Assembly (NCBI RefSeq): GCF_012972705.2
Contig: NZ_JABCSC020000001.1
Span: 434,001 to 498,000, forward strand
Direction of reading: 5' to 3'
Length of the DNA: 64,000 nt
Origin: Uliginosibacterium aquaticum
GTDB lineage: Bacteria; Pseudomonadota; Gammaproteobacteria; Burkholderiales; Rhodocyclaceae
The position numbers and the translations under genes are program-made. The notes beneath the pieces were generated by a model. It did not search any database. It was not told the origin of the DNA and was given only the letters and a program-made list of their open reading frames with translations. Each line of letters begins with the position of its first letter. Within the stretch, counting starts at the first letter, position 1. Below are positions 14,038 to 57,464 of the stretch, piece by piece.

Positions 14038-15021
14038 TCAGTTGCTGCGCATCCGCGCATCCAGCCCTGTGCGTGTCGGAGTGATGAGCGCTTCGCGCCA
14101 TTGCAGTACCTGGGCCGCCACACCGATGGCAATCGCCTGCGGGGTTTTGTCGCGAATCCCGGGCACGCCGATCGGGCATTGCATGCGTTCGATCTGCGCG
14201 GGCGTGAAGCCGCGTGCCGCGAGTTGCTGACGGAAGCGGGTACGTTTGCTCTGCGAGCCGATCAGGCCGAAGTGGGCGAAGTCGCCCCGGCGCAGGATGG
14301 CTTCAGTGAGCGCGAGATCCAGCGCATGGTCGTGGGTCAGCACCAGATGGCTGCTGCCGGTGGGGGCGCTGGTGACGGCTTCGTCGGCAGCGTCGCAAGG
14401 CTGGCATTCGACACCGGCCGGCGCAGCTGCCAGCAGGTCGGCACGCGGGTCGATCCAGCGCAGGCGCAGGTTCAGCGGGGCCAGCAAGTTGACTAGCGCC
14501 GTGCCGACATGGCCGGCGCCATACACATTGAGGCAGAAGGCCGGCGGGGTGAGCGGTTGGGTCAGCGACCAGTCGCGCGCGCTTTCCGTGGCGGGAAGTT
14601 TCAGCGCGCCGCTGGCCGTTCCGGCGGACCAGCGTGAGGCCGCCGCATCACCATCAAGCTGGCGCAGCAGGGCAATGCCTGAGGCATGTTGGGTGGCACG
14701 TCCCTGCCAGGCGTCCGCATCTTCTGGGAGCAGGGTTTCGTAGGTCAGCCAGACGATGCCGCCGCAACACTGGCCGAGGCTGGCGGCCAGCGCATAGCGG
14801 CGCAGCTCGGGGCGACGGTGGCCGGTGAGCAGCATGGCGCGGGCTTCGGCCATGGCCTCCCATTCGAGATGGCCGCCGCCGATGGTGTCGACCACGAAAT
14901 CGGCGCCGACCAGCATTGAAGCTCCGGCCTCGCGCGGCGCCGAGCCACGCACCCCCGCCACCGAGACCAGTACCAGCGGGCTGCGGGCGAGGTGGGCCGG
15001 GAGTTGGGTTAGCCAGTTCAC
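14038..15021 (-). CDS. xdhC: Xanthine dehydrogenase accessory protein XdhC
   Basis: XdhC binds molybdenum cofactor, promotes its sulfuration and delivers it to XdhB. The 327-residue protein has the N-terminal XdhC/CoxI segment (VAGVRGSAPREAGASMLV), the conserved QCCGG motif, and a C-terminal Rossmann domain (VYGAGHVGTALV). It overlaps xdhB by four bases and is the last gene of xdhABC. Confidence 0.95.
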   Translation of the reverse strand: MNWLTQLPAHLARSPLVLVSVAGVRGSAPREAGASMLVGADFVVDTIGGGHLEWEAMAEARAMLLTGHRRPELRRYALAASLGQCCGGIVWLTYETLLPEDADAWQGRATQHASGIALLRQLDGDAAASRWSAGTASGALKLPATESARDWSLTQPLTPPAFCLNVYGAGHVGTALVNLLAPLNLRLRWIDPRADLLAAAPAGVECQPCDAADEAVTSAPTGSSHLVLTHDHALDLALTEAILRRGDFAHFGLIGSQSKRTRFRQQLAARGFTPAQIERMQCPIGVPGIRDKTPQAIAIGVAAQVLQWREALITPTRTGLDARMRSN

Positions 15022-17303: not shown

Positions 17304-18766
17304 GCGAAAACCTCGGTGATGCGATCAACGCGCAGCTGGGCCTGGGTGCTGTGCTCAAGCCACAGGCGGCGCAAAAGGTTACGGGCTACCTGCTGGCGGT
17401 AGGCGGCGGAGGCGCGCATGTCGGCAATCGGCTGGAAATCCTGTTCCAGCGCGTCCATTGCCGCTTCGATGCTGCGCAATTCGAGCGGCTGGCCGCGCAG
17501 GGCCGCTTCGGCTGCCAGTGCCCGGCGCGGGGTGGCGGCCATGCCACCGAAGGCGAGGCGTGCGTCGCTGATCAGGCCGGCGTCACCCAGGGTGAGGGCG
17601 AAACCGGCGCAGACCGCCGAGATGTCCTGATCCTGGCGCTTGCTGACCTTCCAGGTGCGGAACAGGCGGCCCGGCACGGCGCGCGGCACTCTCAGGGCAC
17701 GCACGAATTCACCCGGCTGCAGGGCCGTCTGCTGGTAGCCGAGATAGAAATCTTCAAGGGCCAGCTCGCGCTGGGTTTCGCCTTTCTGCAGCACGACGTG
17801 AGTGCCCAGGGCGATCAGGGCCGGCATCGAGTCGCCAATCGGCGAGCCATTGGCCACGTTGCCGCCGAGGGTGCCGGCATTGCGCACCGGCAGGGAGGCA
17901 AAGCGCGCGGCGAGCTCCTGCCATTGCGGCTCATCGCGGCACAGCAGGGTGAAGGCTTCAGTCAGTGTGAGGCCTGCACCAAGTGTGAGCCAGGTGTCGT
18001 CCGTTTCGGTGCGGCGCAGCTCTTCCACTGCACCAAGATAGATGATGTCGCCGAGTTCGCGCAGCTGCTTGGTGACCCACAGACCGATGTCGGTGCCGCC
18101 CGCCAGCAGGCGGGCTTCGGGTAGCGCCTGGCGCAGGGTGGCGAGCTCGGTGAGCGAACGCGGGGCGAAAAAGCGCTGACCGCCGTGATCAAAATCCAGT
18201 GCCGGCTCGTTGGCGATCTTTTCCAGCGCACTGCGGATCGGTGCGCGCTCCAGGCGTTGCAGCGGGTACTCGCGGCAACGTTGGGCGGCCTCCAGGATGG
18301 GCCGGTAGCCGGTGCAGCGGCACAGGTTGCCGGAGAGCACCTGCTGCGCCTCATCCAGCGTTGGCACGCGCGGCTGCTCCTCGTAATCGGCCCACAGGCT
18401 CATCGCAAAGCCTGGCGTGCAGAAGCCGCACTGCGAGCCGTGCAGATCCACCAGTGCCTGTTGCACCGGGTGCAGGCCATCGGCGCCGGCGAGGTCTTCC
18501 ACCGTGAACAGGGCCTTGCCATCCAGGGTGGGCAGCAGCGCAATGCAGCTGTTGATGGCTTGCAGGCGCAGGCCGCCCGCGCCTTGCGCGTCCAGCGTGG
18601 CTACCACCACGGTGCAGGCTCCGCAATCGCCTTCGCCACAGCCTTCCTTGCTGCCGCAGGCGCCACGCTCTTCGCGCAGCCATTGCAGCACGGTGCGCTG
18701 AGCGGGTTGGTCGCTCAGGCTCAGGGTCTTGCCCTGGTACCAGAAGCGGATATCGGTTCTTGTCAT
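17300..18766 (-). CDS. xdhA: Xanthine dehydrogenase, FeS/FAD subunit
   Basis: This 488-residue subunit moves electrons from the Mo centre to NAD+. The plant-type 2Fe-2S cluster is in GSKEGCGEGDCGACT (C43, C48, C51), the second cluster in SQCGFCTPG and LCRCTGYRP, and FAD motifs are LLAGGTDIGLWV and NAGTLGGNVANGSPIGD. The ATG at 18766 has AAGGAGA eight bases upstream; a more distal ATG at 18797-18799 lacks one. It is the first gene of xdhABC and is divergent from the adenine deaminase gene, whose product feeds it hypoxanthine. Confidence 0.97.
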   Translation of the reverse strand: MTRTDIRFWYQGKTLSLSDQPAQRTVLQWLREERGACGSKEGCGEGDCGACTVVVATLDAQGAGGLRLQAINSCIALLPTLDGKALFTVEDLAGADGLHPVQQALVDLHGSQCGFCTPGFAMSLWADYEEQPRVPTLDEAQQVLSGNLCRCTGYRPILEAAQRCREYPLQRLERAPIRSALEKIANEPALDFDHGGQRFFAPRSLTELATLRQALPEARLLAGGTDIGLWVTKQLRELGDIIYLGAVEELRRTETDDTWLTLGAGLTLTEAFTLLCRDEPQWQELAARFASLPVRNAGTLGGNVANGSPIGDSMPALIALGTHVVLQKGETQRELALEDFYLGYQQTALQPGEFVRALRVPRAVPGRLFRTWKVSKRQDQDISAVCAGFALTLGDAGLISDARLAFGGMAATPRRALAAEAALRGQPLELRSIEAAMDALEQDFQPIADMRASAAYRQQVARNLLRRLWLEHSTQAQLRVDRITEVFA

Positions 18767-18931
18767 GGGTATTTCTCCTTGGGTGTGCATACCTAGCACG
18801 TGACATGCCCATCCTTATCCGTATGCCCACATGACACTCATTGCAAGATCTGGCTGGACAAGCGCAGCGCTGATGTGTGCAGCTCGGCTATGCTGGCACC
18901 ACAACAATCCTTTCCCTTCGCGGAGCAAACA

Positions 18932-22349: not shown

Positions 22350-22457
22350 CGCTTGGGTGAGAAGGCGAGCGCCCATAATCCTTATTGGCGCCGCTGAGTC
22401 GACAGCCTGGGCCGGATCGGGACAATGCGCGCATCAGCCCCTCTCAAGGAAAGCGCC

Positions 22458-23819
22458 ATGAGCACCCTGTTGCTGAAGAACGCGGATGTGGTCGTGACCA
22501 TGGATGCCGGCCGCCGCGAAATTCGCGGTGGCAGCGTATTCATTCGCGACCATGTCATCGAGGCTGTGGGCCAGGCCGCTGATTTACCGCAGTCGGCCGG
22601 GGAGGTCATCGACCTGGCAGGCCATGTACTCATGCCGGGGCTGATCAACACCCACCACCACATGTACCAGAGCCTGACGCGGGTCATCCCGGCAGCACAG
22701 GACGCCGAACTGTTTGACTGGCTTTCCGCGCTCTATCCCGTCTGGGCTGGCCTGACGCCCGAGATGATCCAGGTCTCGACGCAGGTCGCCATGGCCGAGC
22801 TGATCCTCTCCGGCTGCACGACTTCGAGCGATCACCTCTACATTTATCCGAACGGCTGCCGCTTGGATGATTCGATCGAGGCCGCTGTCGGTATCGGCAT
22901 GCGCTTCACGGCCTGCCGCGGCAGCATGAGCGTGGGGCGCTCGCAGGGCGGGCTGCCACCGGATGCCGTGGTCGAGCAGGAAGACGCCATCCTGCGGGAT
23001 ACCCGGCGCCTGATCGAAACCTGGCACGATGCCTCTTCCCACAGCATGCTGCAGATCGCGGTGGCGCCCTGTTCCCCGTTTTCGGTAAGCCGGGATCTGA
23101 TGCGTGAATCGGCCGCATTGGCGCGCAGCTATGGGGTGAGGCTGCACACCCATCTGGCCGAGAACTTCAAGGATGTGGATTACAGCCGCGAAAAGTTCGG
23201 CATGACGCCGGCCGAGTATGCGGAGTCGCTCGGCTGGACCGGGCACGACGTCTGGCACGCCCACTGCGTGCAGCTCGACGCGGCCGGGATTGCACTCTTC
23301 GCCCGCAGCCACACCGGTGTGGCGCATTGCCCGTGCTCCAACATGCGCCTGGCCTCGGGGATTGCACCGGTTCCGCAGATGCTTGCGGCCGGCGTGCCGG
23401 TGGGATTGGGCGTGGATGGCTCGGCTTCCAATGATGGCGCGCACATGTTGGGCGAGGCTCGCCAGGCCCTGTTGCTGGCACGCGTGGGGCATGGCCCGGC
23501 CGCGCTGTCGGCCCGGCAGGCGCTGGAGATGGCTACCCTCGGTGGCGCCAGGGTGCTCGGGCGTGAAGACATCGGGGCCCTTGCGCCCGGGATGAGTGCC
23601 GACTGCGTGGCTTTCCCGTTGGGCGACGTCGGCCTCGCTGGTGGTGCGGTGCATGATCCGGTCGCAGCGCTGGTTTTCTGCACTCCGCCCCGCGCGGCCT
23701 GGTCCGTCATCAACGGGCGGGTGATCGTGCGCGAAGGCCGGCTGACGAGCATCGACCTTCCTGAGGTTCAGCGCCGCCACGATGTGCTGGCGCGGGGGCT
23801 CGCAAACGCCGTGCGTTGA
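22458..23819 (+). CDS. 8-Oxoguanine deaminase
   Basis: This 453-residue amidohydrolase has the metal motif NTHHHMYQSLTR, then LHTHLAE, WHAHCVQLD and the Asp ligand in GVDGSASND. The first motif and the following AAQDAELFDWL resemble the characterised Pseudomonas 8-oxoguanine deaminase, which converts 8-oxoguanine to urate. That product would enter the pathway at PuuD. The ATG at 22458 has AAGGAA upstream. Assignment at family level is firm; the substrate is inferred from motif resemblance and the surrounding urate genes. Confidence 0.85.
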   Translation: MSTLLLKNADVVVTMDAGRREIRGGSVFIRDHVIEAVGQAADLPQSAGEVIDLAGHVLMPGLINTHHHMYQSLTRVIPAAQDAELFDWLSALYPVWAGLTPEMIQVSTQVAMAELILSGCTTSSDHLYIYPNGCRLDDSIEAAVGIGMRFTACRGSMSVGRSQGGLPPDAVVEQEDAILRDTRRLIETWHDASSHSMLQIAVAPCSPFSVSRDLMRESAALARSYGVRLHTHLAENFKDVDYSREKFGMTPAEYAESLGWTGHDVWHAHCVQLDAAGIALFARSHTGVAHCPCSNMRLASGIAPVPQMLAAGVPVGLGVDGSASNDGAHMLGEARQALLLARVGHGPAALSARQALEMATLGGARVLGREDIGALAPGMSADCVAFPLGDVGLAGGAVHDPVAALVFCTPPRAAWSVINGRVIVREGRLTSIDLPEVQRRHDVLARGLANAVR

Positions 23820-25950: not shown

Positions 25951-26781
25951 TTACAGGTGCCATTCGAGCTTGAGCAGCGGCTGGGAAGTCTTCGAGCCGG
26001 TTCCGGAGGAGCCGAACTTGTTCTTCACGTACTCGTAGCCTACGCCCGCGAGAAAGGTGTCCTTGCTGCCACCGGCGAGCTTGCCGGCATCCACCATCAG
26101 GAAGGCGTTGATCCAGGTTTCAGCCTTGGTTTCGGTGCCAAAGCCGTCCTTGCCCTTGGCCCCGGTGTAGGTGGCCCAGCCATTGAACTTGAGCGGTACG
26201 GGGCCGGCGTCGAAGCCCACGCCCCATGCGCTGCCCACGCGCCAGGTCAGATCGAAATCAACCGCCTTGCCGACGATGCCGTTGTGGTTCTTTTCCTTGT
26301 AGCTCAGGAAGTCCAGATCGGCCCAGCCCCAGGTGCCGCCGAACTTGATGGTCGGGCCGACGATGAGCTTCTGCACGCGTGCGGCGAAGGCGTCATCCTT
26401 GGAGTTCAGGTCGATACGGGTGGTCCAGGCGAAATCGCTGATCGGGCCGAGAGCAATCTTGGTGCCGGTGAGCTTGCCGTAGTGCAGCTGGTTGGCAAAG
26501 ATCGCATACAGCTCCTGGGCGCCACCACCACCGTTGTTGGCGGGGTCGTTGTGGTCCGACTTGAGCATGTCGACGGTGAAGAAGTTGCTGCCGTACTTGA
26601 AGCCGCTGACGTGAGTGAAGTTCAGGATGTTCTTCGTCACATCCTTGTCGTTGGCTGGCTCATGGAAGCTCGTGCCATAGCGATAGCTGACCGAGTTGTC
26701 GCTCCAGTCAGCGGCCTGAGCTGCAACGCAGCCGAAGGCGAGAATGAGGGCACTGCTGATCCGGGTGAGGCGGGTGTTCAT
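25951..26781 (-). CDS. Tsx-like nucleoside-specific outer-membrane channel
   Basis: This 276-residue protein has a Sec signal peptide (cleavage after AAQA) and a 12-strand-like beta-barrel pattern ending in LKLEWHL, with aromatic and hydrophobic residues near the C terminus. SVSYRYGTSFHEPAN and NFTHVSGFKYGSNFF are typical of the Channel_Tsx/OmpK family. It probably admits nucleosides or nucleobases across the outer membrane. The ATG at 26781 has AAGGAG six to eight bases upstream. It is downstream, on the same strand, of the NCS2 permease, fitting a shared uptake role. Confidence 0.85.
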   Translation of the reverse strand: MNTRLTRISSALILAFGCVAAQAADWSDNSVSYRYGTSFHEPANDKDVTKNILNFTHVSGFKYGSNFFTVDMLKSDHNDPANNGGGGAQELYAIFANQLHYGKLTGTKIALGPISDFAWTTRIDLNSKDDAFAARVQKLIVGPTIKFGGTWGWADLDFLSYKEKNHNGIVGKAVDFDLTWRVGSAWGVGFDAGPVPLKFNGWATYTGAKGKDGFGTETKAETWINAFLMVDAGKLAGGSKDTFLAGVGYEYVKNKFGSSGTGSKTSQPLLKLEWHL

Positions 26782-27163: not shown

Positions 27164-28753
27164 TCAGCTCGCTGCTGCCTGGGGCAGGGCTTCATCCTCC
27201 GCTTCGGTGCGGGTCGTGTTCTCTGCACAGGCGTACCTCGCACAGCCGGCCAGCACACCGGCTACTGCGAGGTAACTCAGGGCCACCAGCGGGCTTTGGG
27301 CGATGCCGATGGCCTCGCCGTGCATGAAGCCGAAGAAGCTCAGTACGGCTGCGCAGGCTGCGAAGGCTGCGGCCTTCATGAAGTTGCGGTCGATCACGCA
27401 GACGCCGATGGCGCCCAGCATCAGGCCGCCGAGGATGGCGCCGCCGCCCATGACTTCAAGGCCGTGGTAAAGCACGCCGACCTGGCCCAGCTTGTCCAGC
27501 CCCACTGTGGCGGCGTTGGTGCCGGCGGCAGCCAGTGCGTTGTCGATCATCAGCTTGCCCCAGGCGGCAAGGTGAGGTGTGAGGGCCAGGATGATGGCCG
27601 GGGCATGCTTCTTCGGGCTCTCCTGAAAGGCCTGGGCGCCGATCAGCATGCCGATGTAGAGCAGGATCGGCGAGATCGCCACCACCGGGATCAGCGCCAT
27701 CATCAGGGCGATGATGCCAAACCATGACATCAGGATCACTGCGAGGCCGGTCGCGGCGGAGTAGCCGATCCGCCCGCCCATGGCTTTCCAGCCCGGGTGA
27801 CCGATGTAGACGGCATTGATGAAGGGGTTGCCCATCAGGCAGCCAATCAGGCTGATCACGCCATCAGCGGTGAGCACACGGGTGGTGGGGAAGCTGTCAC
27901 CGGCCACGGCAGCGCTCTCCACGTTGTCCATCGCTTCAACCAGATCGTAGATGCCGAAGGGTATGGCAGTGACGAGGATTACGCCGAGAAACTCGAAGCC
28001 TGAAAATACATGCCCCACGGCGGGGAGCGGCAGCGAGAAACCGAAGCTTGCCAGGGCCTGCGTTACGTTGGCTACGCTCATGCCGCCATAGCTGTAGCCG
28101 GCTGCGGTAGAGCCCCAGGCAATCAGGCTGCCGGCGGCGATGGCTACGAGGCCTGCCGGAATGCCCTTGAAGAAACGCACGCCGCCGAACCAGCTCACCA
28201 CGATGATCGCAAAGCACACCAGGCCGATCAGCGGGGTGATGAATAGCTCCTGCGCTGGGCGCATCGAGATGAAGGCGATCGACACGCCGGCCAGGGTGCC
28301 GAGCAGCGCGGCGCGCGGCGTGATCCTGCGGATGAAGGGGGCGATGAAGCCGCCGATCATCAGCACGAAGCTCTGGATGAAGACCCAGGTGAGGCCGGCT
28401 TCCCAGCCCTTGATCGGGTCACCGGTGCTGAGCGAGATCGGCAGCATGATCACGAAGACCACCACGAACATATGCGGCACGCTGATGCCGGAAGGCAGGG
28501 CACAGACATCGCTGCGCCCGGTTTTCTTGGCGAGCTGGTAGGCCAGCCAGGCGTAGTAGCAGGTGGACAGGCACATCATCAGGCCCACGGCGGGCAGGAT
28601 GCGGCCGAAGACAATGGCATCCGGCATCTTGAGTACGAATCGCAGGAGGCCGGTCAGCACCAGCATGTTGACGAGGATGTTCGTGCCGAAGCCGAACAGG
28701 GCGTTCCAGTCGCCCGGCACCCATAGCCGGGGTTTGCTCATGGTCGAAATCAT
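27164..28753 (-). CDS. NCS2-family nucleobase permease
   Basis: This 529-residue inner-membrane protein has about 12-14 hydrophobic helices and resembles xanthine/uracil-type NCS2 transporters. Family segments include ALPSGISVPHMF, EAMDNVESAAVAGDSFPTTR and GNPFINAVYIGHPGWKAMGGR. It should be a proton-coupled nucleobase importer, with xanthine, urate or another purine as the likely cargo given the locus. The ATG at 28753 has GGAGAG six bases upstream. The gap to the upstream isochorismatase-family gene is under 100 bases, so co-transcription is plausible. Confidence 0.88.
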   Translation of the reverse strand: MISTMSKPRLWVPGDWNALFGFGTNILVNMLVLTGLLRFVLKMPDAIVFGRILPAVGLMMCLSTCYYAWLAYQLAKKTGRSDVCALPSGISVPHMFVVVFVIMLPISLSTGDPIKGWEAGLTWVFIQSFVLMIGGFIAPFIRRITPRAALLGTLAGVSIAFISMRPAQELFITPLIGLVCFAIIVVSWFGGVRFFKGIPAGLVAIAAGSLIAWGSTAAGYSYGGMSVANVTQALASFGFSLPLPAVGHVFSGFEFLGVILVTAIPFGIYDLVEAMDNVESAAVAGDSFPTTRVLTADGVISLIGCLMGNPFINAVYIGHPGWKAMGGRIGYSAATGLAVILMSWFGIIALMMALIPVVAISPILLYIGMLIGAQAFQESPKKHAPAIILALTPHLAAWGKLMIDNALAAAGTNAATVGLDKLGQVGVLYHGLEVMGGGAILGGLMLGAIGVCVIDRNFMKAAAFAACAAVLSFFGFMHGEAIGIAQSPLVALSYLAVAGVLAGCARYACAENTTRTEAEDEALPQAAAS

Positions 28754-28846
28754 TGCTGCTCTCCAGTTGGCGCGCCTTGCCCGCTGAGGGGCCGGGCGTT
28801 TCTCGATCAAGCCTGCCGCTTCGCATTGCGAAGCAGCCCCGGGGCT

Positions 28847-29524
28847 TCAACTGCTGCTCATCAACGCAGCGAGGATGCGCTGCGAATCGGACACCCAGCC
28901 AAAGATCCCGCCCTGCGCGCTGATCATGCGCAGGGCGATTTCGTGAAATTCGGGAAAGTAGGAGGCACAGCCATCGGCGGGCAGCACGCAGCGGTAGCCG
29001 CGATCATTGCCCTCGCGCACCGTGGTGTGCACGCAGACCTCGGTGGTCACGCCGCACACGATCAGGGTGTCGATGGCGCGCGTGCTCAGCACGAGCTGCA
29101 GATCGGTGGCGTAGAACGCGCCCTTGCCCGGTTTGTCGATTACGACCTCGCCAGGGATGGGCTGCAGGGCCGGGATGATTGCGTGGCCGGCTTCACCACG
29201 GACCAGGATCCTGCCCATCGGCCCCTTGTCGCCGATGCGCAGGCTCGGCGCGCCGCGCGCGATCTTGGCGGGCGGCGCGTCGCTCAGATCCGGGCGATGG
29301 CCTTCGCGGGTGTGGATGACCAGCATGTCGAGCTGGCGCGCGCCGGCCAGCAGGCGCTGGATGGGCGCCACTGCGCTCTGCAGGCGGGAGACATCATTGC
29401 CGAGGGTTTCGCCGAAGCCGCCGGGTTCCAGAAAGTCGCGCTGCATGTCGATCACGACCAGGGCCGTGTGGGCCGGATCGATGGCGATCGGCCCCGGTTC
29501 TGCATCGATCAGCGCTGTGCTCAT
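28847..29524 (-). CDS. Isochorismatase-family cysteine amidohydrolase
   Basis: This 225-residue hydrolase has the Asp-Lys-Cys triad of the family: [20 protein letters not shown] and [13 protein letters not shown]. The layout resembles ureidoacrylate/biuret-type amidohydrolases (RutB, BiuH) rather than isochorismate hydrolases, and no siderophore gene is nearby. A ring-opened ureide or other amide from nucleobase breakdown is the most plausible substrate. It precedes the NCS2 permease on the same strand, which supports a role with imported nucleobases or ureides. Confidence 0.83.
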
Positions 29525-30095: not shown

Positions 30096-31028
30096 TCAGC
30101 GGTCCAGAACCAGGCGCTTCCCGGCGCAGCGCGACACACAGGGCAGCATGAGCTTGCCGCCGGCTTGCTCGGCTTCATTCAGATAGGCATCGTGATGCGT
30201 CGGGGTGCCTTCCAGCACTTCGCTGAGGCAGGCACCGCAGACGCCTTGCTCGCAGGAGGTGGGGATGTCCACGCCGCAGGCGCGGGCCACCTGGATGATG
30301 GGAATGCCCGCTGGCACTTCGGCTTCGACGCCGCTGCGGGCGAAGGCAATCGTGAACGTGCCATCGCTGGCCGCAGTGCCTGGCGTAGCGCTGAAGCGTT
30401 CGCTGCGCAGGCGCTGGGCGGGGACGCCGGCCGCGGCCAGTGCCGTTTCGACGGCGGCCATGAAGGGCGCCGGGCCACAGGTGTAGAAGCTTGTACCGGC
30501 GTCACCTGCGTGGGTGCGCACGATCATGGCGAGGGCTGCGGCGGTCTGTGTTCCGTCGAGTCCGGCATGGAGTGTGGCGGACTCACCGAGGCGGTCGGCC
30601 CAAGCGGCGTGAGCCGCACTGCGCGCGAAGTAGTGCAGTTCGGCGGCCGTGCCCAGCGCATTGCGCATGGCATACAAGGGGGTGATGCCGATGCCGCCAG
30701 CCAGCAGCACATGGTGGCTGGCGCTGGCATCGATTTCAAACAGATTGGTTGGCGCGCCGATCCGCAGTCGCTCGCCCACCTGCAGCCGGTGCATGGCCTG
30801 CGAGCCGCCGCGCGAGTTGGCTTCCAGCTTCACCGCGATGCGATAGAGCTGATCCTCGCCGGAGTGGTTGCACAGGGAATAGGCGCGCTGCAGGCCCGCG
30901 GGGAGGCAGACCTGGATGTGCGCGCCGGGTGACCAGGGCGGCAGGCTTTCCCGGCCGGCTGGCACCAGTTCGAAGCTGCGCACCCCTTCGGCTTCGATGC
31001 GGATGCTGCGGATCATCATTTCGATCAT
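30096..31028 (-). CDS. Phthalate dioxygenase reductase-type FMN/2Fe-2S reductase
   Basis: This 310-residue protein should pass electrons from NADH to Rieske oxygenases. The FMN-binding domain carries RAYSLC (R48, Y50, S51), the NAD domain LLAGGIGITPLYAM and YTCGPAPFM, and the C-terminal plant-type ferredoxin domain SCEQGVCGACL plus a final Cys in MLPCVSRC. This is the PDR/VanB order (FMN-NAD-FeS) and lacks an extra N-terminal Rieske domain. It overlaps the amidohydrolase gene by four bases and ends the operon. The two upstream Rieske oxygenases are its obvious partners. Confidence 0.93.
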   Translation of the reverse strand: MIEMMIRSIRIEAEGVRSFELVPAGRESLPPWSPGAHIQVCLPAGLQRAYSLCNHSGEDQLYRIAVKLEANSRGGSQAMHRLQVGERLRIGAPTNLFEIDASASHHVLLAGGIGITPLYAMRNALGTAAELHYFARSAAHAAWADRLGESATLHAGLDGTQTAAALAMIVRTHAGDAGTSFYTCGPAPFMAAVETALAAAGVPAQRLRSERFSATPGTAASDGTFTIAFARSGVEAEVPAGIPIIQVARACGVDIPTSCEQGVCGACLSEVLEGTPTHHDAYLNEAEQAGGKLMLPCVSRCAGKRLVLDR

Positions 31029-32452
31029 GCGGCCTCCGCGCGGCGAATCAATGCCCGGGTGGCAGCGCGGGCTTCTGCGGCCAGTTCGGCCATGTCCAGA
31101 TCAGGAATGGCGCCCTCACGCACGATTTCACGCCCGCCCACCAGCAGGCTGCGCAGATGGGCGCTGCCGCCGCAGGCGACCGGAGCGATGGCCAGGTCGT
31201 GGAGGCCGAAGTAACGTGGGTTGCGCGAGAGATCGTAGATCGCGATGTCCGCCGCCTGCCCTTCGGCCAGACTGCCGATGGCGGGCAGGCCCAGCACTGC
31301 GGCACCGCCGCTGCTGCCCCAGCGGATCACGTCTTCTACGCTGGCCGCGTCTGCACCGGCCTCGCCGGCGCCACCACGGAATTTCGGCTGGGCCGCCTCG
31401 CCGCCCTTGGCGCGCTGCATCAGCCAGGCGACATGGGTCTCCGAGATCATGTCGGCCGCTTCGTTGGAGGCGGCGCCATCGACGCCGATCGACACCGGCA
31501 CGCCGGCGGCTTCCAGTGTCCGGATCGGCGCGATGCCGCTCCCCAGCCGGCCGTTGCTCTGCGGGCAGTGGGCGATGCCGGTGCGGGTGGCGCCGAGCAG
31601 GGCGATCTCGTCCGGATCCAGTTTGACGAGGTGGGCGAACCAGACGTCTGCACCGAGCCAGTCGATGCTCTCGCAATAACGCACCGGGCTGATGCCGCGC
31701 ATCGCATTGACGCTGTCCTGATAGCCGACCGTTTCCGACAGGTGCGAATGCAGGCGCAGGCCCAGTTTGCGTGCCACCGCGGCGGCTTCGCGCAGCTCGC
31801 CCGGCTGCATCGAATAGGGCGGCGTGGTGGGTGCCATCACTACGCGGCGCATGGCCTCCGGTGCGGGGTCGTGAAACTGGCTGGCGAGGCGCTCCATATC
31901 CGCCATGTAGGCCGCCATGCTCTCCGGGCGCAGGGCCTGCGGCAGCTCTGCTTCGAGCTGACGGGTGAGGGTGGCGCCGCCCCGGCACAGCACGAAGCGC
32001 AGACCCAGCCTGGCGGCTTCCTCAAACAGGATGGCCGAGCTGTCGTAGTCCTGCCCGGGGTAGTAGAGGTAATTGTGATCGGCCACTGTGGCGCAGCCGG
32101 AGAGGGCCAGTTCGATCAGGCCGATGCGCGCCGCGAGGCGGAAACTCGCAGCATCGAAACCGGCGCGGAAGCGGTAGGGCGTGGCGGCCAGCCAGGGAGT
32201 GAGGGTCGCATTGAGGCCCAACGGCTCGCCTTTCAGGAGCGCCTGGAACAGGTGGTGATGGGTATTCACCCAGGCCGGGTAGATCACGCAGTCGGTGGCG
32301 TCGAGAATCTGCTCGCCGGGCTGAGGCGTGAGTGCGCCGAGGGCGGCGATGCGGCCGGCGCTGATGCGGATGTCCGGGCCGGCATGGCGCGCGGCGGCGC
32401 CAGCGAGGCCAGTCATGATGGCGGCGGCGTTCTTGATGAGGAGGGAAGTCAT
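31025..32452 (-). CDS. Amidohydrolase (deaminase) of the Rieske operon
   Basis: This 475-residue protein belongs to the TRZ/ATZ/guanine-deaminase branch of the amidohydrolases. Metal motifs are VNTHHHLFQALLKG, LHSHLSE, WFAHLVKLD and GVDGAASNE. It is a clear relative of the 8-oxoguanine deaminase at 22.5 kb but differs at the HHH loop (HHHLFQALLKG against HHHMYQSLTR) and in the insert around residue 385 (GGAGEAGADA). Candidate substrates are an oxidised purine, a methylated purine or a pterin such as isoxanthopterin; I cannot choose. It is coupled to the reductase gene by a four-base overlap. Confidence 0.86.
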   Translation of the reverse strand: MTSLLIKNAAAIMTGLAGAAARHAGPDIRISAGRIAALGALTPQPGEQILDATDCVIYPAWVNTHHHLFQALLKGEPLGLNATLTPWLAATPYRFRAGFDAASFRLAARIGLIELALSGCATVADHNYLYYPGQDYDSSAILFEEAARLGLRFVLCRGGATLTRQLEAELPQALRPESMAAYMADMERLASQFHDPAPEAMRRVVMAPTTPPYSMQPGELREAAAVARKLGLRLHSHLSETVGYQDSVNAMRGISPVRYCESIDWLGADVWFAHLVKLDPDEIALLGATRTGIAHCPQSNGRLGSGIAPIRTLEAAGVPVSIGVDGAASNEAADMISETHVAWLMQRAKGGEAAQPKFRGGAGEAGADAASVEDVIRWGSSGGAAVLGLPAIGSLAEGQAADIAIYDLSRNPRYFGLHDLAIAPVACGGSAHLRSLLVGGREIVREGAIPDLDMAELAAEARAATRALIRRAEAA

Positions 32453-32539
32453 TGGGAATGTCCTGTTCTGGGAGCCCTCTGCCGGCGCTGTGCGCCATCC
32501 TCTCCCTTCAGCGGGAGAGGGAATGGAGGGCGGTGTCGT

Positions 32540-33334
32540 TCAAGCCATTTCGCTCTCATGCCAATGAGCCAGCGAAAGTTTCGCCAGCCAGGCCATCAGC
32601 GAGAACAGCAGCACGCCGGTGATCGAGATCAGCAGCAGGGCGGCAAACAGACGCGGGATGTTGATCTGGAAGCCGGCCTGCAGGATCTCGTAGGCCAGCC
32701 CGGCGCCGGTGCCACCGGTGCCGGCCACGAACTCCGCCACCACCGCGCCGATCAGGGCCAGGCCGCTGGAAATGCGCAGGCCGCCGAAGAAGCAGGGCAG
32801 GGCACTCGGGATGCGCAGGCGGGTGAGCGTCTGCCAGCGCGAGGCGCCATTGATGCGGAACAGGTTCAGCAGGCCCGGATTCACGCTGCGCAGCCCCAGC
32901 ACGGTGTTGGAGATGATCGGAAACAGCGCGACCAGCGTGGCGCACACCACCAGGGCCGCAGTGGGATTCTTGACCCAGATGATGATCAGCGGCGCAATCG
33001 CCACCACCGGGGTGACCTGCAGCAGGATCGCGTAAGGGAACAGGCTGGTTTCGATCAGCTTGCTCTGTACGAACAGGAAAGCCGCTGCCACCCCCAGCAC
33101 CACCGCCACGAAGAAGGCCAGGAAGGTGATTTTGAGGGTGACGCCCAGCGCGCGCAGCAGGCCAGGGCCGTCGGTCCACAGGGTGGCGAGAATGTCGGTG
33201 GGCTTGGGCACCAGATAGGTCGGCACCTTCCAGGCGGTGCACAGCACTTGCCACACCAGCAGCAGGAAGACTCCGAGCAGCAAGGGGGCGACGATTTTCA
33301 CCACGGCAGGGCGGTGTAACAGAGGGGGTTTCAT
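32540..33334 (-). CDS. ABC importer permease of the Rieske operon
   Basis: This 264-residue protein is an SsuC/ThiX-type permease with about six membrane helices. The family loop near FRINGASRWQTLTRLRIPSALPCFFGGLRI contacts the ATPase (shown in part; EAA-like Gly at its centre). A GAGGAG lies six to nine bases upstream of the ATG. It is 11 bases downstream of the ATPase gene. It should import the substrate of the operon's oxygenases. Confidence 0.9.
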   Translation of the reverse strand: MKPPLLHRPAVVKIVAPLLLGVFLLLVWQVLCTAWKVPTYLVPKPTDILATLWTDGPGLLRALGVTLKITFLAFFVAVVLGVAAAFLFVQSKLIETSLFPYAILLQVTPVVAIAPLIIIWVKNPTAALVVCATLVALFPIISNTVLGLRSVNPGLLNLFRINGASRWQTLTRLRIPSALPCFFGGLRISSGLALIGAVVAEFVAGTGGTGAGLAYEILQAGFQINIPRLFAALLLISITGVLLFSLMAWLAKLSLAHWHESEMA

Positions 33335-33345
33335 GGTGGTGCTCC

Positions 33346-34179
33346 TCAGTCGTGCTGCAACTCGCCGCCACTGGCCGCCAGCAGACGGGCCGAGAGATCA
33401 CGGCAGTGTTCGGTGAAGGCTGGCGAGAGGCGGAATTCCTCATCGCGCTGCGGCTCGGGGATCGGCAGGTCGGCCACGATGCGCCCGGGGCGGGCGGCCA
33501 TCATCACGACGCGGCTGGAGAGGTACACCGCCTCGTAGATGCTGTGGGTCACGAAGATCACGCTGAGCTGGCCGGCTTTGGCTGCCCACAGGCTGCGCAG
33601 ATCGGCATCGAGCTTGTTGCGCGTGAATTCGTCGAGCGCGCCGAAGGGCTCGTCCATCAGCAACACATCCGGTTCGGTGACCAGCGCCCGCGCGATCGAG
33701 GCGCGCATCTGCATGCCGCCAGAGAGCTCGCGCGGATAGCAGTTGCCGAAGCGCCCGAGGCCGACCTGATTCAGCGCCTGTTGCACGCGTGACTCGCTTT
33801 CGGCCTTCGGGACTCCGGCCAGGTCCAGCGGCAGGCGCACATTGGCCGCCACGCTGGCCCAGGGCATCAGGGTGGCTTCCTGGAACACCATCGCGATCTT
33901 CAGGCCGCTCTTGCCGGGCGCATCCGCGCCCAGCCAGCGCAGATGGCCGTGCGAAGGCGATTCGAGCCCGGCGAACATCTTGAGCAGGGTGCTCTTGCCG
34001 CAGCCCGAAGGGCCCAGCAGCGAAACGAAATCGCCGCGCTGGATGATGAGGCGCACTTCGTCCAGCGCGCGGGTGCCGTTGGGATAGGTTTTCTCGACGC
34101 GGTTGGCGAACAGCACGCTGTCCGCGTCCGGCGCCAGCAGGGTCGGTTCCGGTTCGATATCCATGTATTTCATCAGCAT
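33346..34179 (-). CDS. ABC importer ATPase of the Rieske operon
   Basis: This 277-residue ATPase has Walker A GPSGCGKST, Q-loop VFQEATLMPW, signature LSGGMQMR, Walker B VLLMDEPFGALDEF and the H-loop in FVTHSIYEA. It groups with the taurine/sulfonate/pyrimidine-precursor importers. The ATG at 34179 has AGGAG seven bases upstream and avoids overlap with the preceding Rieske gene, which ends at 34205. Confidence 0.91.
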   Translation of the reverse strand: MLMKYMDIEPEPTLLAPDADSVLFANRVEKTYPNGTRALDEVRLIIQRGDFVSLLGPSGCGKSTLLKMFAGLESPSHGHLRWLGADAPGKSGLKIAMVFQEATLMPWASVAANVRLPLDLAGVPKAESESRVQQALNQVGLGRFGNCYPRELSGGMQMRASIARALVTEPDVLLMDEPFGALDEFTRNKLDADLRSLWAAKAGQLSVIFVTHSIYEAVYLSSRVVMMAARPGRIVADLPIPEPQRDEEFRLSPAFTEHCRDLSARLLAASGGELQHD

Positions 34180-34204
34180 GTTCAGCTCCTTCTGATCGCC
34201 GCGC

Positions 34205-35224
34205 TCAGGGGCGGAAAATTTCGGTTTCGCCATGCGCCGTCAGCAGGTCCATCAGCTGCTTGCGGATGATCAGGCCGGGTTTGTCCGAGGGCATGTGGAA
34301 CTCGACGCGGCGGCGCGTATCGACGCAGGCATCCGGGTCGGTGGCTTCGAGGATGTCGCGGTCCTCGGCGGTGATGGCCGCATCCCAGTCGATCAGCTCC
34401 TGCGTGCTGCAGGCTTCCTCTGTGTCGTTGCGATAGAGCCATTGCACGAGGACCATGTTGTCGTCGTCGATTGGCGTGGCGCAGTTGTAAATGATGTGAT
34501 CCGTGCCGCTGGCCGGGTAGGTGCAGCCAAAGCGGCGGCAGAAGGGCAGGTAGTAGCGATTGACGAGATGGCGATGGGTGATCGGCTCGGTGGTGCCGGT
34601 GACGCGGTGGCTGGCCTCCGGGTTGCGGATCGGCACGGTGGTGATGGCCTCGAAACCGTAGTCGGTTTCATTGAATTCGTAAGGTGCCGGCTGCGGCTGC
34701 TCGAGGATGCCGAAGTTGGCCTTGTGCACGAAGGAGAAGTGCGAGTTGTCGAAGCTGTTCTCCATCATGCGCAGCGGACTGGTTTTCCAGGTCTCGTAGA
34801 ACTGGAAGATGCGGCGATAGCCGGGCGCGCCGTCTTCGGGGAAATGCGGGATGTCGCGCAGTGGATCTTCCAGCGCGACCCACACATAGCCGTACTTCTC
34901 CTGGCAGTGAAAGGGTTTGACTCTGGCGCCCGGCGGAATCGCGCTGCCCGGGCTTTGCGGGATCTTCACGCAGGCGCCGCTGCAGTCGTAGCTCCAGCCG
35001 TGGTAGCCGCAGACGATGTGGCCGTTCTCCACGAAGCCCTTGGAGAGCTGCGCGGTGCGGTGGCAGCAGCGGTCCTGCAGGGCGGCGGGCGTGCCGTCGG
35101 CCTGCTTCCACAGCACGAGTTTCTCACCGAGCAGGGTGAAGGGCTTGGGGCCGTCGTCGAGGGCCGTCATCGGCATCAGTGCGTACCAGAAACGACGCAG
35201 CACGGCTTGTTGGGTGACCAGCAT
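34205..35224 (-). CDS. Rieske non-heme iron oxygenase, paralogue 1
   Basis: This 339-residue oxygenase has Rieske ligands C53/H55 and C72/H75 (CxH-x16-CxxH in RCCHRT and VCGYHGW). The mononuclear iron site is ENSFDNSHFSFVHK (D159, H162, H167). Length and single-subunit layout resemble HpxD and methylxanthine N-demethylases (NdmA/B) rather than two-subunit aromatic dioxygenases. Its first 122 residues align without gaps to the neighbouring paralogue with 27 differences. The ATG at 35224 has AGGAG nine bases upstream. Likely action: hydroxylation or oxidative N-demethylation of a purine-like ring, with electrons from the reductase at 30.1 kb. Confidence 0.92.
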   Translation of the reverse strand: MLVTQQAVLRRFWYALMPMTALDDGPKPFTLLGEKLVLWKQADGTPAALQDRCCHRTAQLSKGFVENGHIVCGYHGWSYDCSGACVKIPQSPGSAIPPGARVKPFHCQEKYGYVWVALEDPLRDIPHFPEDGAPGYRRIFQFYETWKTSPLRMMENSFDNSHFSFVHKANFGILEQPQPAPYEFNETDYGFEAITTVPIRNPEASHRVTGTTEPITHRHLVNRYYLPFCRRFGCTYPASGTDHIIYNCATPIDDDNMVLVQWLYRNDTEEACSTQELIDWDAAITAEDRDILEATDPDACVDTRRRVEFHMPSDKPGLIIRKQLMDLLTAHGETEIFRP

Positions 35225-35323
35225 TTTCGTGTACTCCTTGACTTCTACTGCTCCGGCCGGCGTGCCAATACGGTCGCCTTCGCCAGTGGGCTGCGCGGCA
35301 TGCCGGCAGCCATTCAATCCAAT

Positions 35324-35351
35324 CGTCATTCCGGCAGCCGCCGGCGTGACG
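35324..35351. repeat. REP-like hairpin between the Rieske genes
   Basis: cgtcattccggc (35324-35335) and gccggcgtgacg (35340-35351) form a stem with one mismatch, related to the element inside the cyn operon. Confidence 0.6.
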
Positions 35352-35356
35352 GGGGT

Positions 35357-36385
35357 TCAGGCCTGAGCCGTGGCGCGATGCACTTCCTGTTCGCCGTGCG
35401 CCTGCAACAGCGCCAGCAGGCGCCGGCGCATGATCAGGCCCGGCTGGTCTGCGGCCATGTTCTGCTCCATGCGGCGGCTCACATCCACGGGTGCATCGGC
35501 ATCCACCGTTTCGAGGATTTCCTTGTCCTCGGCGATTACGCGCAGATCCCAGTCGTTAAGCTCGCTGGCCGGGCAGTCGGCTTCACTGTCGTTGCGGTAG
35601 AGCCACTGCAGGATCTGGATGTGTGCGTCATCAATCGGTGTGGCACAGGTCACGATCAGGTGCTCCAGCCCGTTCGGATAGCTCAGGCCCAGGCGGCGGT
35701 TGAAGGGCAGGTGCCACTGATTGCGGAAGTGGCGCCGCGTGGTGGGCTCGGTGCTGCCGGTGATGCGGTGCGAGGCCGGCGGGTTGTTGATGACCAGCCG
35801 GGTTTCGGCCTCGAAGCCGTAGTCGGTTTCGCGGATCTCGAAGAACTCGGGTTTCTGTGCGTGGAACTGGCCGAAAGTGCCTTTGTGCACAAAGGCGAAG
35901 TGGGCCGCGTCGAAGCTGTTCTCCATCAATCGCAGGGCGCCAGTCTGCCAGCGCACGTCGAACTGCTGGATGCAGCGATAGCCGGGCGCGGCGTGTTCGG
36001 GGATCTCGAACACAGGTTTGAGCGGATCTTCCAGTGCCACCCACACATAGCCGTATTTCTCCTGGCAGTGAAAGGCGTCCACCTTCGCACCGGGTGGGAT
36101 CGTGTTGCCCGGGCTTTGCGGGATCTTCACGCAGGCGCCGCGGCAGTCGTATTGCCAGCCGTGGTAGCCGCAGACGATGTGGTCGCCCTCGACGAAACCT
36201 TTGGAGAGTTTCGCTGTGCGGTGGCAGCAGCGGTCACGCACGGCAGCCGGGCTGCCATCGGACTTCTGCCAGATCACGATGGGCTCACCGAGCAGGGTGA
36301 AGGGCTGCGGGCCGTTGGCGAGTTTTTCCATCGGCATGATGGCGTACCAGAAACGGCGCAGGGTTTTCTGTTGGGTCACGAGCAT
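35357..36385 (-). CDS. Rieske non-heme iron oxygenase, paralogue 2
   Basis: This 342-residue protein has the same architecture as its neighbour: Rieske ligands in RCCHRT and VCGYHGW, and iron site ENSFDAAHFAFVHK. The N-terminal Rieske domain is nearly the same as in paralogue 1, whereas the C-terminal substrate domain is more diverged (for example HLPFNRRLGLSYPNG against YLPFCRRFGCTYPAS). This suggests a shared electron donor but different substrates or ring positions. It starts 112 bases after the binding-protein gene. Confidence 0.92.
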   Translation of the reverse strand: MLVTQQKTLRRFWYAIMPMEKLANGPQPFTLLGEPIVIWQKSDGSPAAVRDRCCHRTAKLSKGFVEGDHIVCGYHGWQYDCRGACVKIPQSPGNTIPPGAKVDAFHCQEKYGYVWVALEDPLKPVFEIPEHAAPGYRCIQQFDVRWQTGALRLMENSFDAAHFAFVHKGTFGQFHAQKPEFFEIRETDYGFEAETRLVINNPPASHRITGSTEPTTRRHFRNQWHLPFNRRLGLSYPNGLEHLIVTCATPIDDAHIQILQWLYRNDSEADCPASELNDWDLRVIAEDKEILETVDADAPVDVSRRMEQNMAADQPGLIMRRRLLALLQAHGEQEVHRATAQA

Positions 36386-36497
36386 GATCGGTCTCCATGC
36401 GGGGCGGCGCTTTTTTCGCCTGCCGACCGGCGTGCCAGGAGGGTCGCCTTCGTCGGGTGCGCTGCGGCACGGGCCGCAGCGCGGTGCATGAATAGCT

Positions 36498-37496
36498 TCA
36501 GGGCATGATCTTCAGGTCCTTCACGAACTGAGTCGTGTAGGCCTTCTTCCAGTCCGTGTCCGCCTTGAGCAGGCCGGCACCGACCATGAACTTGTAGGTC
36601 TGCTCCCAGCGCGCATCGGTCATGATGCCGGCGCCATATTTGGCGGCGTCGCCCCCGTCAAAGACCTTGAGTTCCTTCATGCGCTTCACGCCGAAGGCGA
36701 TCTGCTCGTCTTCCATTTTCGGGTTGTCCTTCTTGATCAGCTCGTTGCCGGCGGCCGGGTCGGCGAGGTAGCTCTTCCAGCCTTCGATCGAGGCCTTGAC
36801 GAAGCGGGCCACCAGATCGGGCTTATCGGCGACGGTCTTCTGCATGGTCACGATGGTGGTGCCGTAGGGCGGGTAGCCCTCATCCGCGAACAGGAAAAAG
36901 TTGGCCTTCACGCCGTTCTTCATGGCCTGGAAAGGCTCGGAGGAGGGGTAGGCCTGCTGCGCCAGCGTGGCGTCAGCAAAGAAGGGCTGAAGGTTGAAGG
37001 TGTAGGGGCGGAACTGGGCATCGGTGAAGCCGTAGCGGGCCTTGATCCAGGGCAGCCAGGTGGTGTGCGCGGTGGTGCCGGCGAGGATGGTCTTGCCTTT
37101 CAGCTCGGCCAGGGACTTGACGTCGTCGTGCGTCATCATGCCCTGCAGGTCTTTCTGGAAAGAGGCGGCAACGGTGGTGACCGGCATGCCCTTCTCGATC
37201 GAGTTGAGCACCTGCAGGTCGTAGCCCATGATGAAGTCGGCCTGGCCGGCAGTGAGCAGCTGCATGCCGTTGACCTGCGGGCCGCCCATCTTGAGGGTTA
37301 CGTCCAGCCCGTACTTCTTGTAGATGCCCTTGGCGACAGCCTGATAGAAACCGCCGTGCTCGGCCTGGGCGTACCACGAGGTGAGGAAGGTGACCTTGTC
37401 GTCTGCTTTCACGGTGCTGGCGCCGAAGGCCAGCAGGGCGGCGGGAAGGATGGTGCCAAGCAGGCGACCAAGAGGGCTGCGGGTTGCTGTTGTCAT
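36498..37496 (-). CDS. NMT1/SsuA-type periplasmic binding protein of the Rieske operon
   Basis: This 332-residue receptor has a Sec signal peptide (hydrophobic stretch LLGTILPAALLAFGAS, cleavage near VKADD). The mature segment VTFLTSWYAQAEHGGFYQAVAKGI matches the NMT1/THI5-like family that binds pyrimidine precursors, riboflavin-like and other heterocycles. The ATG at 37496 has GGAGA seven bases upstream; a much longer upstream frame would not yield a signal peptide. It is the first gene of the seven-gene operon. The family supports an N-heterocyclic cargo, but the ligand is not known. Confidence 0.9.
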   Translation of the reverse strand: MTTATRSPLGRLLGTILPAALLAFGASTVKADDKVTFLTSWYAQAEHGGFYQAVAKGIYKKYGLDVTLKMGGPQVNGMQLLTAGQADFIMGYDLQVLNSIEKGMPVTTVAASFQKDLQGMMTHDDVKSLAELKGKTILAGTTAHTTWLPWIKARYGFTDAQFRPYTFNLQPFFADATLAQQAYPSSEPFQAMKNGVKANFFLFADEGYPPYGTTIVTMQKTVADKPDLVARFVKASIEGWKSYLADPAAGNELIKKDNPKMEDEQIAFGVKRMKELKVFDGGDAAKYGAGIMTDARWEQTYKFMVGAGLLKADTDWKKAYTTQFVKDLKIMP

Positions 37497-38069
37497 GCCG
37501 GTTCTCCGTTGAGAAGTTTTTTCGCATGGGGGGCCATGCGGGGAACCGGAACTCACAGGGGCGATTCGGATCTTGCGCGGGCTGCTGGCAAACCTGATCG
37601 GACCCCGGTGCGTTCCGTAACGAACACAAGCGCCCGCTGGCGGGCACACAGCCGTCAGCCAGGGCTGACGACTGCCGGAGCAATGACCTGTTGCGCATGC
37701 CCTGAGGCTTCACAACTGACAGCTTCTACTCCACTGCCTGTTTAGCAATCGGCGTGCCAAGCATGCGGGGAGAAATGGCGTGTTGATGAAAATCAAGGCT
37801 TTGGCTTGTGCGCCTATGCGCATGGCGTTGGCAGGGCCTGCTCAGGGCGGGCATGCAGGCATCTGAAGGGCACTTTGTTGGATCGCCACGCATGCGTTTG
37901 GGCACCGTGCGGGTGCAGTGTGCAGGCGCTTTTTGATGCTGCGGGCAGAGTCGGTTTGCTGCATTGCGGAGTGCGCTTTTTCCGCAATTGCACTAGGGTT
38001 TTCCCTAGGCCGAGAAACGGTGGGCAGAAGCCTGCTGCGGCCATCAGCCCCCCTTCTGGAGCCATGAAA
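37497..38069. other. Divergent regulatory region (Rieske operon / NADH dehydrogenase)
   Basis: No gene is supported in these 573 bases. It must contain the minus-strand promoter of the Rieske operon and the plus-strand promoter of the NADH dehydrogenase gene. A perfect palindrome is described separately at 37653-37670; a second small hairpin, cgcccgctggcgggc, lies at 37631-37645. The segment ttgcactagggttttccctagg near 37987-38008 contains the palindrome cctagg-like arms ccctag/ctaggg. Confidence 0.5.
37653..37670. promoter_or_regulatory. Perfect palindrome upstream of the Rieske operon
   Basis: CGTCAGCC-AG-GGCTGACG has eight-base arms and lies 157 bases upstream of the first gene's start codon. 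It may be an operator, but no dedicated regulator gene is adjacent. Confidence 0.4.
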
Positions 38070-55227: not shown

Positions 55228-55563
55228 GAGCTTTCTCCTTGGCTATGCCCTCACCAAGGCAATCTGCGTGCCATGTTCCGCACAGACTTGGCTTGAACCC
55301 GCGCTTTCGGGCACCCGGCGCAGCTTCTGGCGCTATAAAGGCTGCCGCATAGGGTTCATATTCCTGCGCGCATCCCGCCCCCGGATTGCGCCAGGTAGGC
55401 ACCAGTCTGGCACGCAGGTAGGCCTGTTTGCGCGGGGATACGCTGCCGCATGCACCAAGTTGGTGTGTGTATCCGGCGCTAAAGCCCCGCAGCCTGCGGC
55501 TCGAGCGTGGCACAGCGATTGCTGAAGGAGTGGTGTTGTCCTTTCAATCCACCGGAGTGCCCC
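55228..55563. other. Divergent promoter region (LysR gene / ABC importer)
   Basis: No gene is supported. A small inverted repeat, ccttgg (55237-55242) with ccaagg (55254-55259), lies near the LysR start. LysR sites are expected here but I cannot single out a T-n11-A box with confidence. Confidence 0.45.
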
Positions 55564-56595: not shown

Positions 56596-56683
56596 GGCAG
56601 TAACCGCAAGACCTCATCACAACAAGGGCGGGGCGCGCTGCAACGTGACCCGCCCATCCACCCAGAATACAGAGAGCCCGATC

Positions 56684-57463: not shown

Positions 57464-57464
57464 G

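Follow-up and report, generated by a model that had tools for sequence, protein, structure and literature searches.

A xanthine riboswitch-headed operon of Uliginosibacterium aquaticum predicted to channel pterins into purine breakdown

A 64,000-nucleotide stretch of the Uliginosibacterium aquaticum genome (contig NZ_JABCSC020000001.1, positions 434,001 to 498,000; hereafter the window) contains seven minus-strand open reading frames between positions 37496 and 30096, which encode an ATP-binding cassette (ABC) importer, two Rieske oxygenases (RieA and RieB), an amidohydrolase and a reductase. We propose, with a probability of roughly 0.6 and on the basis of sequence comparison, that this operon imports a pterin, deaminates it and oxidises its ring, and that the product enters purine breakdown. 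Genes were identified by Pfam and NCBIfam profile scores. The open reading frame list and domain searches returned the gene order, limits and domains of a preliminary description of this DNA, and the gene identities support the route of uptake, oxidation and deamination that it had outlined. Absent from that description were the identity of the deaminase and a xanthine riboswitch in the operon leader.

The amidohydrolase scores well above the cut-off of family PRK12393 (747.6 versus 543 bits). Its closest solved structure is PDB 2PAJ (699 bits; next chain 265.9 bits), with 323 of 467 residues identical (69.2%). We take 2PAJ to be the isoxanthopterin deaminase Sgx9339a, reportedly described by Hall et al. 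in 2010 in a study that is said not to have extended to importer and oxygenases. Because the operon deaminases of four Paraburkholderia are 87–93% identical to 2PAJ (loci L107, 93.4%; L113, 90.0%; L109, 89.3%; L101, 87.2%), an operon of this kind is very likely the source of the crystallised enzyme. The motifs HHHLFQ, DHNYxYYPG and APTT are common to the window deaminase and 2PAJ in the alignment, and conserved Gln, Tyr and Thr residues presumably bind the substrate in isoxanthopterin deaminase. All 90 deaminase matches of more than 350 amino acids (window, L036–L119 and L124–L141) contain APTT, whereas the 8-oxoguanine deaminase paralog of the window and another such enzyme in L117 have APCS instead. 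A role as 8-oxoguanine deaminase was rejected, as the operon protein stays below the PRK08203 cut-off (394.3 versus 532 bits) and the true enzyme (731.1 bits) is encoded elsewhere in the window. These comparisons argue strongly for an isoxanthopterin deaminase orthologous to the characterised enzyme. According to PMC5270733, which together with PMC11121863 serves here as citing source for the content of the 2010 work, isoxanthopterin and pterin-6-carboxylate are deaminated by the amidohydrolases that Hall et al. studied, which stem from Sargasso Sea DNA.

At the head of the operon, about 180 nucleotides upstream of the NMT1 start codon, lies an aptamer of the xanthine riboswitch class (NMT1 RNA, RF03054). 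It is the sole over-threshold match in the 64 kb when scanned against all Rfam families and the single RF03054 match in the whole 4.09-Mb assembly; 14 control genomes gave no RF03054 match. Leader matches to mir-2968 and MH_s10 fell below threshold and were taken as chance. For other members of the class, translational OFF control and binding of xanthine and urate are reported by Yu and Breaker 2020 (PMC7373994). The leader in the window folds more stably than 200 of 200 shuffles (z −3.5), and in its lowest-energy fold the ribosome-binding region pairs with an upstream GGUUCCC. Position C8 of the purine matters little for the aptamer, with some loss for bulkier groups (PMC7373994), and is solvent-accessible in the aptamer structure (PMC8266621); the aptamer may therefore also bind xanthine-8-carboxylate, the ring-contracted product of the route proposed below.

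To follow the distribution of the operon, a two-sequence alignment of the deaminase served as query against a set holding one genome for each species. The best 80 of at least 552 confirmed relatives were analysed (L040–L119), together with four plasmid records (L036–L039); counts refer to the 80 loci unless stated. A conserved neighbourhood, for which a search had been suggested earlier, indeed exists: the gene set recurs in dozens of genomes, Burkholderiales and Pseudomonas among them, and is therefore not a chance arrangement. A search for RF03054 was positive for 37 of 40 and 41 of 44 genomes or records, corresponding to 74 of 80 genomes and all four plasmid records. By coordinates, 73 aptamers could be placed in 67 of the 80 loci, L115 being left out of the count; five of the 13 loci without a counted aptamer are cut stretches (L045, L048, L056, L111 and L115). 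The gene next downstream is NMT1 in 55 cases, the reductase in 11, the 2-oxoglutarate (2OG) oxygenase OG2b in six and RieB in one. In 11 Herbaspirillum loci the reductase opens the operon behind the aptamer, and all six OG2b loci harbor two back-to-back aptamers, one for OG2b and one for an NMT1–ATPase–permease–deaminase unit.

RieA and RieB are 62.7% identical, and each combines CCHR...CGYH (2Fe-2S) and NSFDxxHFxFVH (mononuclear iron) motifs in one chain. Oxygenase content was compared in those 71 loci that extend far enough upstream, with the deaminase lying beyond base 6900, using identity thresholds of at least 60% for RieB and at least 45% for OG2b and a second 2OG enzyme, OG2a. RieB is present in 63 of these loci and OG2b in six, never both (Fisher p = 2e-7, uncorrected for shared descent); one of the remaining two has OG2a alone (L046) and the other none of the three (L110), and RieB, OG2b or OG2a occurs in 70 of 71. 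OG2a is found in 13 of 71 loci, not always within the operon, and in 22 of 80 when weaker matches are included. The closest solved relative of OG2b is thymine dioxygenase, a pyrimidine-base hydroxylase (112.5 bits). Since RieB and OG2b are mutually exclusive and OG2b carries its own aptamer in six of six loci, the two probably replace each other and share hydroxylation as common chemistry. RieA accompanies RieB in a minority of 12 of 71 loci. The tandem Rieske pair of the preliminary description is thus present in the window but is one variant only: the conserved core contains one oxygenase, RieB or a 2OG enzyme, and RieA is an accessory paralog of RieB, the operon's conserved oxygenase. An AlphaFold2 model of RieB computed without alignment was discarded (predicted local distance difference test score 29.9).

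Gaps between the seven genes do not exceed 132 bp and the deaminase and reductase frames overlap, which makes a single transcript plausible. The reductase would supply electrons to both Rieske oxygenases. Alignment with relatives sets the RieB start at 35224, in a frame open up to 35329, and the true start of the ATPase may lie downstream of 34233, at about 34179.

Table 1 Features of the operon and of its surroundings in the window
Feature	Position	Strand	Basis
Xanthine riboswitch aptamer (NMT1 RNA, RF03054)	37673–37736	−	43.4 bits (gathering threshold 36)
NMT1/SsuA-type periplasmic substrate-binding protein of ABC importer, predicted pterin receptor	36498–37496	−	PF09084, 113.5 bits
Rieske oxygenase A (RieA), VanA-type, 342 amino acids	35357–36385	−	PF00355 and PF19112
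Rieske oxygenase B (RieB), 339 amino acids, predicted pteridine-ring hydroxylase	34205–35224	−	PF00355 and PF19112
ABC importer ATPase, SsuB/TauB type	33346–34233	−	PF00005; top NCBIfam TauB-type, 196.4 bits, under cut-off 357
ABC importer permease, SsuC type	32540–33334	−	PF00528, 90.3 bits
Isoxanthopterin deaminase by sequence, amidohydrolase superfamily	31025–32452	−	PF01979; PRK12393, 747.6 bits (cut-off 543)
Flavin/2Fe-2S reductase, PDR/VanB type	30096–31028	−	Fer2; NCBIfam PaaE, BenC and GbcB under cut-off
Tsx-like outer-membrane channel, possibly associated	25951–26781	−	Relatives' loci; tsx in the gene list of PMC7373994 (accessible part)
Separate 8-oxoguanine deaminase, paralog	22425–23819		PRK08203, 731.1 bits; about 7 kb from operon
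xdhABC, xanthine dehydrogenase and accessory protein	14038–18799	−	TIGR02963 and TIGR02964 over cut-off; TIGR02965, 1194.8 bits

According to the proposed scheme, the NMT1 receptor, permease and ATPase would import isoxanthopterin or a related pterin, from which the amidohydrolase would take off the 2-amino group to yield 7-hydroxylumazine. RieB and the reductase would then hydroxylate the pyrazine ring at C6, giving 2,4,6,7-tetrahydroxypteridine, and RieA probably acts on a second pterin form, for example one with a C6 side chain or carboxylate. As the reaction of xanthine oxidase on lumazine is an oxidation at C7, C6 would be left to the oxygenase. This conversion, of lumazine to violapterin, is reported in PMC9966888. 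Ring contraction to xanthine-8-carboxylate and decarboxylation would deliver xanthine, the putative product sensed, whose breakdown xdhABC and the urate and allantoin genes of the window would complete. These steps are modelled on the classical Alcaligenes route, which leads from isoxanthopterin through 7-hydroxylumazine, tetrahydroxypteridine and xanthine-8-carboxylate to xanthine, and for whose ring-contraction enzyme we know of no gene. By analogy with other members of its class, the leader riboswitch would turn translation off when xanthine or urate is plentiful, acting as product feedback.

The window is a nitrogen-heterocycle region. Over NCBIfam cut-off are xdhABC, adenosine deaminase, 8-oxoguanine deaminase, ureidoglycolate lyase, allantoicase, cyanase, the allantoinase PuuE, hydroxyisourate hydrolase (uraH) and OHCU decarboxylase (uraD). 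The presence of xdhABC, noted previously, was confirmed, at a distance from the operon of about 11 kb rather than 12 kb. Its gene xdhB was sought with TIGR02965 in 80 genomes, namely the window's genome, five riboswitch genomes from an even sample of the order and 74 of the 80 deaminase genomes, and passed the cut-off in 79; 73 of these 74 are positive, the exception being a metagenome-assembled genome, that of L045. The operon is therefore not an Hpx-type substitute for xanthine dehydrogenase, in line with the earlier suggestion that it handles something this enzyme cannot. A second NMT1-type receptor with ATPase and permease lies beside the urate genes (55507–58244, plus strand); by eye, it resembles the receptor in the riboswitch locus of genome G107 (L124, 12508–13608).

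Operons sharing the aptamer family as well as NMT1/tauA, hcaE, PDR, pcbC-type dioxygenases, PRK12393 and tsx were linked to the xanthine riboswitch by Yu and Breaker in 2020, and the preliminary remark of knowing no described pathway with exactly this gene set needs amending to that extent. There, however, the genes are read as purine oxidation (PMC7373994), which would mean HpxD-like hydroxylation of hypoxanthine, xanthine or 8-oxopurines and an amidohydrolase acting as guanine or 8-oxoguanine deaminase. That paper describes the precise dioxygenase functions as not established and the metabolic use of the switch as not readily apparent; in its accessible main text, isoxanthopterin is mentioned once, among purchased chemicals, and no result for it is given. 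Riboswitch genomes without PRK12393 do have a TadA-like deaminase beside the oxygenase, and G107 by eye has an NCS2-type permease, which would suit conversion of guanine to xanthine. We nevertheless consider purine oxidation unlikely: PRK12393 differs from the 8-oxoguanine deaminase family, a true member of which is present in the window, and an HpxD-type enzyme would be redundant in the 79 genomes with xdhB. HpxD of Klebsiella, a molybdenum-independent xanthine hydroxylase, is likewise a single-chain Rieske enzyme of similar length in a purine setting, but its identity to RieA and RieB is only 30.8% and 27.7%.

Phylogeny separates the Rieske enzymes further. In a tree of 100 sequences (two duplicates of NdmA and NdmB left out), RieA, RieB and the riboswitch-linked homologues of TadA-type operons form one family of 93 rows (support 100/99), with a RieA clade of 15 rows (98/99) and a RieB clade of 72 rows (97/97). 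HpxD falls outside this family on a long branch, and NdmA and NdmB form their own four-row clade with two Paraburkholderia homologues (100/99). As the tree carries a long-branch warning, only the separation of groups is used, not the root. RieA and RieB thus stand apart from all three enzymes with which the preliminary description had wished them compared, and identities as HpxD-type xanthine hydroxylase or NdmA/B-type demethylase were rejected.

Somewhat less probable still than purine oxidation is an inverted order of steps, in which pterin, dihydropterin or 6-substituted pterins would first be converted to isoxanthopterin by the Rieske enzymes, through side-chain removal or C7 hydroxylation, and the amidohydrolase would deaminate afterwards. 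The deaminase family acts on an oxidised pterin, an optional second oxygenase (RieA or OG2a) suits several pterin inputs, and some operon copies adjoin genes for a flavin adenine dinucleotide (FAD) oxidase, RidA and creatininase. C7 oxidation, however, should be available from the xanthine dehydrogenase of 79 of 80 genomes, and another C6 enzyme would still be needed to reach xanthine. Degradation or N-demethylation of methylxanthines or another alkaloid is very improbable: although NdmA and NdmB are single-chain Rieske enzymes acting on xanthine-like bicyclic rings and the closest solved relatives are NdmA for RieA (148.5 bits) and SxtDIOX, SxtT and NdmA for RieB, identity to NdmA is 31.5–33.1% with separate clades on long branches, analogues of xanthine or uric acid that carry a methyl group at N1, N3 or N7 are rejected by the aptamer (PMC7373994), and the deaminase has no obvious role on methylxanthines. 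Among the substrates initially considered, a pterin is thus favoured by the deaminase, and a methylated purine is not.

Several observations weigh against the pterin-to-purine route. Both the oxygenase step and the ring position attacked are inferred. Among operon neighbours, no candidate gene for ring contraction or decarboxylation was found in every copy: FAD oxidase (16 of 80 loci), RidA (15), creatininase (12) and a flavodoxin-fold protein (11) are minority partners and were rejected as a universal ring-contraction enzyme. A reductase match of at least 200 amino acids is present in 20 of 80 loci. The aptamer is absent from six of 80 deaminase genomes (L061, L066, L071, L094, L098 and L108), and in L066, L094, L098 and L108 no NMT1 gene precedes RieB, the oxygenase and deaminase directly following the FAD-oxidase set; in L046 and L110, the aptamer lies elsewhere in the genome, away from the deaminase locus. 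In L110 (12525–13854) and L111 (11436–12401), the deaminase adjoins a Rieske gene of about 31–33% identity that groups with HpxD on long branches, and in L110 a TadA-like gene stands beside the deaminase and this 32% Rieske. Finally, the lowest-energy leader fold closes the ribosome-binding site yet disrupts the aptamer, 24 of 65 aptamer-region bases pairing outside it and part covering the start codon; an OFF switch is neither shown nor excluded by this fold.

The even samples bear on the same question. Among 250 genomes of the order, the riboswitch is over cut-off in nine (13 at E 0.001). PRK12393 passes its cut-off in five of the nine (the window's genome, G504, G564, G603 and G623), and it lies within the aptamer's operon in three only (the window's genome, G564 and G623), being on another contig than the aptamer in G504 and G603. 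The other four (G107, G578, G616 and G649) have a TadA-like deaminase with a Rieske or OG2b, and also xdhB. Among 369 genomes of the class, riboswitch and deaminase occur in two each, with the window's genome alone having both; G358 has PRK12393 over cut-off and no riboswitch match. The riboswitch therefore serves at least two operon kinds, its regulon is wider than the pterin pathway and the deaminase can occur without it; the switch was rejected as a marker of this pathway alone. That a pteridine-to-purine pathway makes up much of the xanthine riboswitch regulon, with isoxanthopterin deaminase, the new Rieske family RieB or a non-homologous 2OG enzyme for the same C6 hydroxylation, and ring contraction to xanthine-8-carboxylate and on to xanthine, is a tentative extension to which we give slightly less than even odds.

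Variant gene groups were observed among the relatives. The second operon kind, with a TadA-like protein (cytidine-deaminase fold) and a RieB-like Rieske or OG2b but not PRK12393, is found in L124, L126, L129, L131 and L140, the first four from genomes with xanthine riboswitch and xdhB. On a Klebsiella plasmid (L036, 1910–9595) and in L037 (4877–12589), a divergent module adjoins the riboswitch–deaminase–2OG operon and comprises FAD oxidase, permease, ATPase, NMT1, creatininase, RidA, a cytosine-deaminase-like amidohydrolase and a PDR reductase; in Ramlibacter-type loci, too, RieA/RieB are preceded by FAD oxidase, RidA and creatininase. This module possibly handles side-chain or reduced pterins. 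L136 (1117–10458) groups three Rieske oxygenases, creatininase, an isochorismatase-fold hydrolase, a 54% deaminase and an importer, which suggests a ring-opening variant. A marine Paracoccaceae plasmid (L141, 6808–12365) harbors a TadA-like deaminase, an importer, a 2OG oxygenase and a gene already annotated as isoxanthopterin deaminase; genes of folate one-carbon metabolism lie a few kb away. In a Klebsiella record (L139, 12001–13405), a deaminase homologue matches in two frames and is probably broken or misassembled.

Around the operon, the Tsx-like channel has a match in 10 of 80 related loci and none in a Pfam search. Just downstream, an isochorismatase-fold hydrolase (28847–29524, minus strand; top NCBIfam the biuret amidohydrolase BiuH, 269.2 bits, cut-off 370) was rejected as operon member, with matches in none of the 80 loci. 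It is followed by a 530-amino-acid membrane protein (27164–28756, minus strand) that by eye resembles a nucleobase permease; Pfam gave no meaningful match for it and NCBIfam none at all.

A literature search, most subscription journals lying outside its reach, returned no paper linking the operon to pterins in the text accessible; PMC5941619 proved to offer no more than a mass match in urine. Early deamination also marks the bacterial route for folate that runs through a pterin deaminase (Arad3529; Variovorax F1, PMC9513972), another case of pterin catabolism in soil bacteria; that route uses a different deaminase (399 amino acids in F1), the accessible text names no oxygenase or importer, and later steps are left open there.

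If the proposed route is correct, a pterin pathway ending in xanthine would give the riboswitch a use and a feedback logic, and two unrelated oxygenase folds would fill one step. Genes would be assigned to a bacterial pathway otherwise known from the enzymology of the 1960s alone. The label of purine oxidation would then be corrected on an operon widespread in Burkholderiales and Pseudomonas, through which the nitrogen of insect pigments and of products of folate breakdown would be recycled.

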